Shown one piece after another: positions 30,931 through 33,425 of a DNA stretch of 43,010 nucleotides. Position numbers and translations under genes: made by a program. Under the pieces are notes generated by a model. The model did not search any database. It saw nothing but the letters and a program-made list of their open reading frames with translations, and was not told where the DNA came from. The stretch's first letter is position 1. Each line of letters starts with the position of its first letter. This DNA comes from Methanoculleus frigidifontis (GTDB taxonomy: Archaea > Halobacteriota > Methanomicrobia > Methanomicrobiales > Methanoculleaceae): the NCBI RefSeq assembly GCF_030464345.1, contig NZ_VCYH01000015.1, forward strand, positions 1 to 43,010, given 5' to 3'.

Positions 30931-31329
30931 TCACCACGCCCGGCCGCAGTGCAGGCAGCGGTCCCGATGAACGGAGAGGATGTGTCCGCACTGCGGGCAT
31001 CTCCGGCGGACCTCTTCCTGCTCGACGAACGCCGCGATTCCCCGCTCCCGGATCTCGCAAAGGTTCTCCAGCATGCTCATCCGGTACTTCGTTGTGTAGC
31101 GCTTGTCCAGGCGTTTCAGCCGCGGGCAGGGGTAGTTCGCGCAGTCGAAGCAGTAGTCTCCCGTGCGGTCTTCGCAGTTCCTGATGGTGCACCGGGCGCA
31201 GGAGGGGCGCAGCCTGCTGGCATCGCCCGCCCGGCAGCCGGGGCACCGGTCCTTCTCCCGCAGGTAGCCGATGCAGAGGGCGCAGTTCATGCCGCAGGGG
31301 GCTATCAGGGCCGGGGAGAGGCGGGTCAT
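30931..31329 (-). CDS. DUF3795-type cysteine-rich protein
   Basis: This 132-residue protein has at least fifteen Cys. The N-terminal part carries APCGMNCALC, then CPGCRAG, CARCTIRNC and CFDCANYPCPRL, the layout of the DUF3795 family, which probably binds metal. The C-terminal part adds a separate zinc ribbon, CPQCGH...CLHCG. The function of the family is unknown. The ATG at 31329 was chosen because the domain begins right at it (SPALIAPCGMNC). It is flanked by non-coding DNA on both sides and seems to be transcribed alone. Confidence 0.85.
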   Translation of the reverse strand: MTRLSPALIAPCGMNCALCIGYLREKDRCPGCRAGDASRLRPSCARCTIRNCEDRTGDYCFDCANYPCPRLKRLDKRYTTKYRMSMLENLCEIRERGIAAFVEQEEVRRRCPQCGHILSVHRDRCLHCGRAW

Positions 31330-31470: not shown

Positions 31471-31701
31471 CTAACCTATCCGGGCGAGCATCTCCTTCAG
31501 TCGCTCGAGCCCTTCGCCGGCGGCGTCGAGGGTTTTCGCGCCGGTTATAGAGAAGATGAGGAGGGAGACGCCCCGGTCTGTACCGAAGGGGAGATACCCA
31601 TACCTTTCCGCGGCTGCTTTCTCTATCACCGGGAGGGATCGGTTGTAAGTAGTCAGATGCCGGCAGACCTGCTTGTGTATATCGAAACCCCGATCCGACA
31701 T
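31471..31701 (-). CDS. Unknown 76-residue protein under a half-site array
   Basis: Not recognised. The protein begins MSDRGFDIHKQVCRHL, has a strand GVSLLIFSITGA in the middle and ends with an amphipathic helix GLERLKEMLARIG. This helix-strand-helix mix might be a small alpha/beta domain. I chose the ATG at 31701 because a TATA-like GTGTATATTC (31725-31733, minus strand) lies about 28 bases upstream, which would give a leaderless message; an earlier ATG would overlap the box. The 120 bases in front contain eight TTGTG/CACAA half-sites. The strong regulation suggests a conditional role, possibly autoregulation. Confidence 0.6.
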   Translation of the reverse strand: MSDRGFDIHKQVCRHLTTYNRSLPVIEKAAAERYGYLPFGTDRGVSLLIFSITGAKTLDAAGEGLERLKEMLARIG

Positions 31702-31702
31702 A

Positions 31703-31823
31703 CACAATGTACCTTGTGCGTACCAGAATATACACAAACCCTATATGCCGGGGAGCGGTTGTGCGACACCTGCGACCCACAACGGAGTTTGTGCGACATG
31801 AACATGCGTTTTGTGTCCCACAA
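31703..31823. promoter_or_regulatory. Array of eight TTGTG/CACAA half-sites around a TATA box
   Basis: CACAA occurs on the plus strand at 31703, 31733, 31778 and 31819, and TTGTG at 31714, 31759, 31789 and 31811. Two dyads are identical in form, CACAA-N6-TTGTG at 31703-31718 and 31778-31793, exactly 75 bases apart. TTGTGCGACA is repeated at 31759 and 31789, 30 bases apart. TTTGTG-TCC-CACAAA at 31810-31824 is a tight palindrome. The first dyad covers the probable transcription start of the 31701 gene, and another half-site abuts its TATA box (31725-31733). This looks like multiple operators for one repressor. Confidence 0.7.
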
Positions 31824-31884
31824 ACGATGGTGCAAGGGTTCAGGGTGGCGTTACTGCATCCGCTGCAGGGCTTGTTTCCGTGGT

Positions 31885-32547
31885 TCACGCCGCTGCCGGT
31901 TTTTCGTAGAACGGGGACGGGAGCGCCGGACACACACGGTAGACGTGGCGATACACTTCGTCCACCCTGGCCTGCACGTCGTCTTCGGTATAGTGATCCA
32001 CCGGCAGGCCGGTTGTATCGCTCCAGAGGAAATCGCGGATGGTAAGGAGAACGGCATCGCGGTCCTTCTGCAGGCTCCGGTAGATGACGCTGATCGCGTC
32101 GCGCTCGCTTTGGTGCGCGTTGATCCTTGCTACGTTGAGAATCTCGCGGCTCCAGCCATGCTCAAAGGTTTTTTGGGCATACCATACGCGCAGATCCGCG
32201 TCTTTCAGTTTGTCGAGCAGGGCACCGTTGCTGCGCCACGGAATGTGTGCAATGGTGCGTTGCACAAACTCGCGGTCGGGCCAGGACCCAGAGAAGGTGC
32301 GCATATACTTCAGGTTGCGCGGGGAGAACCCCGTCATCTCGGGAAAGGCGATCTTCAGGTCGTGTGACAGACGATCGATCACCTTCGCGCCCCATCCCTC
32401 GCTCTTCTGGCGATCCAGGATAATCCTTCCAATATCCCATTACAGCAGGATCATGGCTGCGTTGGCCGCAAGCGTGACCCGCAGGCGCTCCGACCAGATT
32501 CGCTCTTTGATCTCTCCGAGTACCCCGGCGTAGTCTGCAGGCAGATC
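31885..32547 (-). pseudogene. Decayed DUF1016 (YhcG-type) nuclease gene fused to a foreign tail
   Basis: One frame runs from about 32547 to 31885 and is broken by a TAA at 32440-32442, where the family has Tyr (expected LLYWDIG, found LL-stop-WDIG). Before the stop it reads LPADYAGVLGEIKER. After it come DRQKSEGWGAKVIDRLSHDL and GFSPRNLKYMRTF, all typical of the DUF1016 N-terminal domain. The nuclease domain is missing. After HGWSREIL the sequence switches to an unrelated tail (RDFLWSDTTGLP...YRHVYR), which resembles the end of restriction-type large subunits; that match is from memory and weaker. A GTG at 32382 could start a shortened product. Confidence 0.75.
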
Positions 32548-32969: not shown

Positions 32970-33425
32970 ATGACACGCTGGCTCGCGATATCCAACCGGG
33001 AGAACTCCGACGTCGTGATCAGGAAACACGTCTGGGGCGTGCCGAAGCGGTACGCCAACACCATCGGCCGGGTACAGCCCGGCGATACTGTGCTCGTCTA
33101 CGTCGGGCAGAAGATCGTCGACAGAGACGTGCTCCCGCCGGCGCTCACCGGAGCTTTTGCGGTCACCTCGGGAGTGTACGAGGACACCTCCCGGATCTTC
33201 ACCGCACCGCAGAAGCTCGGCGACGAGGTCTTCCCGCTCCGGATCACCCTCAAGCCCATCAAACTCTTCGATCCGCCGATGGAATTCAAACAGCTCCTCG
33301 AGCACCTGCAGTTCATCACCAACAAACAGCAGTGGTCCGGGCATCTCCGCGGGAAGGCGATGCGGGAGATCCCCGAGGAGGACTACGCCTACATCATGCA
33401 GGCGGCGGAGACGCCGCGGGACTGA
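32970..33425 (+). CDS. EVE-domain protein
   Basis: This 151-residue single-domain protein of the EVE/PUA-like fold opens RWLAISNRENSDVVIRKHVWGVPKRY and contains PGDTVLVYVGQKI and the EIPEEDYAYI ending typical of the family. EVE domains bind modified bases or modified nucleic acid and often accompany restriction and other defence genes in mobile regions. The ATG at 32970 has TAGGAG five bases upstream. It sits between decayed DUF1016 genes and a truncated primase, and is itself intact. Its stop marks the point where the opposing primase homology ends. Confidence 0.88.
   Translation: MTRWLAISNRENSDVVIRKHVWGVPKRYANTIGRVQPGDTVLVYVGQKIVDRDVLPPALTGAFAVTSGVYEDTSRIFTAPQKLGDEVFPLRITLKPIKLFDPPMEFKQLLEHLQFITNKQQWSGHLRGKAMREIPEEDYAYIMQAAETPRD

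Follow-up and report, generated by a model that had tools for sequence, protein, structure and literature searches.

A worn array of paired TTGTG sites in Methanoculleus frigidifontis as a probable relic of the putative operator of a SoFic-like Fic clade

The SoFic proteins, represented by Shewanella SO_4266 (structure 3EQX) and by E. coli Sofic, are anti-phage AMPylases with a C-terminal winged helix, and the E. coli gene is reported to be followed by a 47-aa antitoxin gene, AS1 (PMC12249575). For defence loci of other kinds, dedicated regulators have been described. The BrxR WYL regulators of defence islands bind inverted repeats with 11-bp arms and a 5-bp spacer (PMC9122601), and in a type I restriction island with an embedded DarTG2 toxin system, RptR acts on a multi-site operator made of TAGCTA repeats (PMC12255303). 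The array presented here bears on two general questions, the silencing of Fic-type defence toxins and the timing of restriction operons. In the open-access full-text literature we found neither a described DNA target of the SoFic winged helix, or an operator for it, nor any report of this array.

The array lies in a 43,010-nucleotide stretch of the M. frigidifontis genome (the window), and in related genomes it is linked to a Fic protein of the same family as the SoFic enzymes, with the same fold and the same C-terminal winged helix. Where E. coli Sofic has the AS1 gene downstream, these loci have the array instead. As in the BrxR systems, a winged-helix regulator would be paired with long inverted repeats beside a defence operon; BrxR, however, is a separate WYL protein whose single dyad precedes the gene that encodes it, whereas the array, most often placed after the AMPylase gene, has six half-sites in three dyads of fixed arrangement, and Pfam finds no WYL domain in the array-linked Fic. 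With the RptR system the array would share the character of a multi-site operator at a toxin-bearing restriction island, but RptR is a small alpha-helical repressor acting on direct repeats of a 6-bp palindrome, and both motif and protein are unrelated. Further, BrxR and RptR are dedicated regulators, whereas in the putative Fic operator the AMPylase itself would be the regulator.

The array was noticed in a sequence-only reading of the window as an eight-site cluster at 31703-31823, and its description of the sites was accurate. CACAA stands at 31703, 31733, 31778 and 31819 and TTGTG at 31714, 31759, 31789 and 31811; a ninth site, TTGTG at 31673, lies just beyond that span, and the true left edge is a degenerate dyad at 31643. 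The pair of CACAA-N6-TTGTG elements (31703 and 31778, 75 bases apart), the 10-base direct repeat TTGTGCGACA (31759 and 31789, 30 bases apart) and the compact palindrome TTTGTG-TCC-CACAAA, which ends at 31824, are all present. The proposed excess over chance was borne out as well: with the rest of the window as background, the Poisson probability of at least eight sites in 121 bases is about 4e-13, the remaining 43 kb holding 39 TTGTG/CACAA sites and, away from the array, no 121-base stretch with four or more. The 3.17-Mb genome contains three copies of CACAA-N6-TTGTG, of which this array supplies two, and one of the reversed control; this one spaced pattern served as the genome-wide measure of motif density. 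Among the matches listed for 61 related genomes, the longer pattern TTGTG-N14-CACAA-N6-TTGTG (T19C11T) has 36 strand matches and the reversed control one.

A BLASTN search with the array gave matches in 31 of the 61 related genomes, and about 40 of these places were taken with their flanks for comparison. The aligned copies follow a fixed plan built of half-sites with a TTGTG core: a 24-bp dyad, 6 bp, a dyad of 34 or 35 bp, 6 bp and a second 24-bp dyad. Because the common half-site spacings are 8, 19 and 30 from T to C and 11 and 22 from C to T, the half-sites fall near one face of the helix. In Methanoculleus two such modules stand in tandem, A with the half-site TTGTGNRTA and B with TTGTGSGWC; the window copy has a complete module A with a worn first dyad and a module B that lacks its last dyad, as follows.

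31643-31666, plus strand: module A, dyad D0, 24 bp, worn, TTGTAAGTA..GCCGGCAGA, placed by alignment with relatives
31673-31707, plus strand: module A, dyad D1, 35 bp, TTGTGTATATC..GACATACACAA, at the same position in relatives
31714-31737, plus strand: module A, dyad D2, 24 bp, TTGTGCGTACCAGAATATACACAA
31759-31782, plus strand: module B, dyad D3, 24 bp, TTGTGCGACACCTGCGACCCACAA
31789-31823, plus strand: module B, dyad D4, 35 bp, TTGTGCGACAT..GTGTCCCACAA

The final 24-bp dyad of the relatives (D5) is not recognisable in the window copy. Elsewhere the same plan is written in other letters, as in Nitrococcus (TTGTGTAGGGGCTGGACTCCACAA-6-TTGCGGAGTC..-6-TTGTGCCGTTTGCGGACTCCACAA), where the module fills the gap between fic and res, its end lying about 20 bp short of the start codon of res, and at locus L214 (TTATGGTAACAATCTGTTACACAA-6-TTGTGTAACA..TGTTACACAA-6-TTGTGTAACAAATCTGTTACTCAA).

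The copies sit in many genomic contexts, about 20 of them directly after a Fic-family gene and most others after a broken one. Their recurrent 5' flank is the C-terminus of fic (..ITEGDRL-stop, the stop being contained in TTGTGA), and on the 3' side the recurrent flank runs into the beginning of hsdS. The array-linked fic mostly lies within restriction operons, in the order hsdM-fic-array-hsdS or mod-fic-array-res, and the clearest complete locus, that of a Methanoculleus sp. (L117), reads hsdM-fic-array-hsdS with a 4-bp overlap of fic and hsdM. When 84,980 genomes were scanned with one of these Fics, relatives were found in Methanoculleus, Methanolinea, Methanothrix, Armatimonadota, Legionella, Opitutales, Nitrococcus, Magnetovibrio, Olsenella and others, many of them with the same module plan right after fic in different letters. 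The sequence-only reading had noted no described archaeal regulator with this site; we likewise found none, but the element is not specifically archaeal, since its geometry also occurs in several bacterial phyla. At one locus from a record titled as bacterial (L132, Bacteroidales bacterium Bact_23), both Fic and array cluster with those of Methanothrix, and misbinning of the contig or a recent transfer is the probable explanation.

To test the association, the highest-scoring module in the roughly 320 bases that follow fic was compared with shuffled versions of that DNA, with a cut-off of z>=3. In the clade to which the Methanoculleus Fics belong, a module was found downstream in 39 of 50 loci (median z 10.2), with exact spacing in 35 of the 39, whereas among other, canonical SoFic-family genes it was found in 2 of 97 (median z -0.2). 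The wing differs between the two groups, ITGKxRYKxY in canonical SoFic vs GxGRRxxxY in the array-linked Fic. The score had been refined after these 50 and 97 loci were viewed, and the same function was then used unchanged on a hold-out of 16 new gammaproteobacterial relatives, of which 15 gave usable loci: 12 had a module beside fic (9 downstream, 3 upstream), one was borderline and two had none. Four canonical plasmid-borne copies had no module, as expected. The module is also missing in a plasmid-borne copy from Novosphingobium that lies near the clade (L309) and in L131, L269, L320 and L326, which speaks against the module being an operator of Fic. Four loci of a Methanosarcina-type family on another Fic branch (f8; L245, L249, L251 and L254) have downstream TTGTG/CACAA sites in GTGCA/TGCAC contexts; they had been picked up by a loose site count and were rejected when they failed the geometry test, and they may represent a separate array built differently.

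The array-linked Fic is a member of the SoFic family (E 5e-114 against the PADLOC SoFic model PDLC03963) and, by its motifs, a predicted AMPylase. It carries the Fic motif HPFx(D/E)GNGRxxR as HPFCDGNGRIGR and the inhibitory (S/T)xxxE(G/N) helix as SSRIEGT, both invariant or nearly so in A3. Pfam reports only Fic_N and Fic, plus one sub-threshold HTH match, and the structural model (pLDDT 92.6) places a winged helix at the C-terminus, with the recognition helix at 325-337 and the wing at 342-356, the nearest solved structure being Shewanella SoFic 3EQX (TM 0.82).

The letters of the half-sites go with the recognition helix. In Methanomicrobiales, all 8 loci with an RRAxER helix have mainly GCGAC half-sites, and 12 of 13 with a KKTxNR or K(E/V)SGAK helix have mainly GGGTC or GGGAC, the remaining one being a tie. 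On the tree of the Fic N-domain the helix type switches at least twice (four times on the best tree), and a single origin is found in 0% of bootstrap trees. Recognition by Fic's own helix explains this correlation simply, although recombination could also exchange helix and array together, as they are neighbours on the DNA, and the covariation may then reflect linkage. The half-site of module A, TTGTGNRTA, also counts against recognition by Fic, as it stays constant whatever the helix type. On balance, the array is probably the binding site of Fic's own DNA-binding domain, as judged from these sequence comparisons. The natural pairs RRAAER/GCGAC and KKTANR/GGGTC can be used for testing recognition, and the array offers a specific candidate target sequence of fixed architecture, in archaea and in bacteria.

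Fic might instead be a mere passenger in the cassette, and the array an operator of another protein such as a host regulator or a restriction subunit. Fic proteins are indeed frequent in restriction operons, and the match of wing type to array presence is imperfect, with 13 and 8 discordant cases under a loose wing pattern. The genes beside fic, however, vary from type I HsdM/HsdS and type III Mod/Res to MmeI and Eco57I enzymes (type IIG) and a Druantia-like helicase. As the neighbours change from locus to locus and Fic does not, Fic is the partner that the arrays share; moreover, canonical SoFic loci are without it and the half-site letters track the Fic helix, and we consider a different owner of the sites unlikely.

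Cumulatively, we think it somewhat more probable than not that the window array is a vestigial copy of a cis element belonging to one SoFic-like Fic clade, and that this element is a putative multi-site operator for the winged helix of Fic. The intact unit would comprise fic, often between a methylase gene and a specificity or nuclease gene, and one or two adjoining three-dyad modules. Each dyad would be bound by a Fic dimer through its winged helices, with three such dimers on a module near one face of the DNA, and bound Fic would repress the adjacent dangerous gene, that is, the downstream nuclease or specificity gene, or fic itself where the array is upstream. When Fic leaves the array, abortive defence based on AMPylation would become coupled to expression of the restriction operon. 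Against this stands that the array is more often downstream than upstream of fic, which is unusual for an autoregulatory operator. A variant that we regard as a minor possibility is that the array works as a DNA antitoxin, holding Fic dimers at their own locus with the AMPylase off until a phage-induced loss of contact frees the toxin. Release could come about by degradation or modification of the DNA or by a competing protein, and the enzyme would thereby be its own DNA-bound alarm.

The res site of resolvases has three subsites, and the run of 24-, 34- and 24-bp dyads recalls them. Copies of the array occur in many contexts, and at one locus (L155, Mailhella) near-identical direct repeats of it, each over 100 bp, are found on both sides of fic, as could be expected if it were a res-like recombination or transposition site by which the fic cassette spreads from locus to locus. 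A recombinase, however, lies beside only one locus (L152) in the subset whose neighbouring genes were scanned, the half-site letters vary with the Fic helix, and arrays stay put while their flanks decay; a role in moving the cassette thus seems very improbable.

In type III toxin-antitoxin systems such as ToxIN, a repeated, foldable RNA element lies beside the toxin gene, and in this outward respect the array resembles it. The array could accordingly be imagined as a series of RNA hairpins that form part of the fic mRNA, serving as a type III-like RNA antitoxin, an attenuator or a processing element. It is mostly on the sense strand of fic, past the stop, and single copies fold well, with z of -5.9 on the plus and -6.5 on the minus strand at L104 and of -3.8 on the minus strand of the window array; the plus strand of the latter, however, folds no better than its shuffles (z -0.4). 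Compensatory changes of the kind expected for paired RNA occur in dyads D4 and D5, a point in favour of RNA and against an operator of Fic. Mismatches in the dyad arms, on the other hand, are of the G-U type in 49 cases and of the A-C type in 43, so that no strand is favoured. Further, the half-site letters are common to the dyads of one array and not merely shared within a pair (2.0 of 4 variable positions, vs 1.2 between arrays), which together with the lack of a strand signal fits protein half-sites in DNA. Unlike the ToxIN element, the array has palindromic half-sites, occurs on either side of the gene (upstream of fic at several loci) and matches no Rfam family at gathering score; matches to mir-15 and other miRNAs at L139 and L214 were below gathering score, driven by the palindromes, and were discarded. 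The centre of D1 can also be inverted relative to fic, as at L244 (G037), where about three tandem modules lie downstream of fic and their centre matches the D1 centre of Methanoculleus in reverse complement. We therefore favour a DNA element and view an RNA function as doubtful.

In the window itself, the array stands in a decaying defence island, of which the following relics can be recognised.

31584-31645, plus strand: relic of the fic 3' end reading into the array, with TTGTAA in place of TTGTGA at the stop
31888-32082, minus strand: relic of the HsdR C-terminus, 74% over 65 aa (E 1.6e-30) with the array-bordering HsdR of the sister genome
32134-32382, minus strand: DUF1016 N-terminal remnant (DUF1016_N, E 8e-21), fused in frame to the HsdR relic

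The chimeric frame of the two minus-strand relics spans 31885-32382, and the decayed island is flanked by genes for a DUF3795 protein (30931-31329, minus strand) and an EVE-domain protein (32970-33425, plus strand). The DNA at 31603-31718 matches the intact fic end and array of locus L086 at 78% (E 6e-21), and in tblastn Fic residues 350-367 fall on 31584-31637, the right place, with an E of 0.32 taken alone. A survey for SoFic genes found no intact fic of the array-linked type in this genome, the relic at the array being the only trace; the sole SoFic-family gene found is canonical, lies elsewhere and has no array (L196, G000:C2:190677-191774). The window array is consequently an orphan and, with its fic gene gone, probably idle. 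Between the sister genomes G000 and G001 it shows no excess conservation (87% in the array vs 83-91% in the left-hand DNA). As a DNA mark, the array allows the Fic clade and such relics to be located in genomes.

The sequence-only reading had assigned the array to a small leaderless gene of 76 residues at 31471-31701 on the minus strand. That the array is real, conserved and operator-like stands; that it controls this gene does not, and we give the idea almost no credence. The array does lie ahead of the frame and has a TATA-like stretch among its sites. In the sister species, however, the same frame carries a TGA and a TAG; Pfam has no match for it, it belongs to no family, and outside the genus it finds matches only through residues 1-40, which are encoded by the array. 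We judge it not to be a gene. Its homology is explained by its position antisense to the decayed fic 3' end and the array, which together make up its N-terminal half. A coding reading of the other strand, a cysteine-rich frame at 31657-32367, was rejected as well, having no significant Pfam match and differing in frame between copies. The last 33 residues of the 76-residue frame weakly resemble the C-terminus of TBP, with a score of 52 against a shuffled maximum of 44 and nothing in Pfam. This stretch (31474-31592, minus strand; LLIFS..ITGAKTLDAAGEGLERLKEML) is 88% conserved in the sister genome and, going by this resemblance, is a possible remnant of an extra TBP gene.
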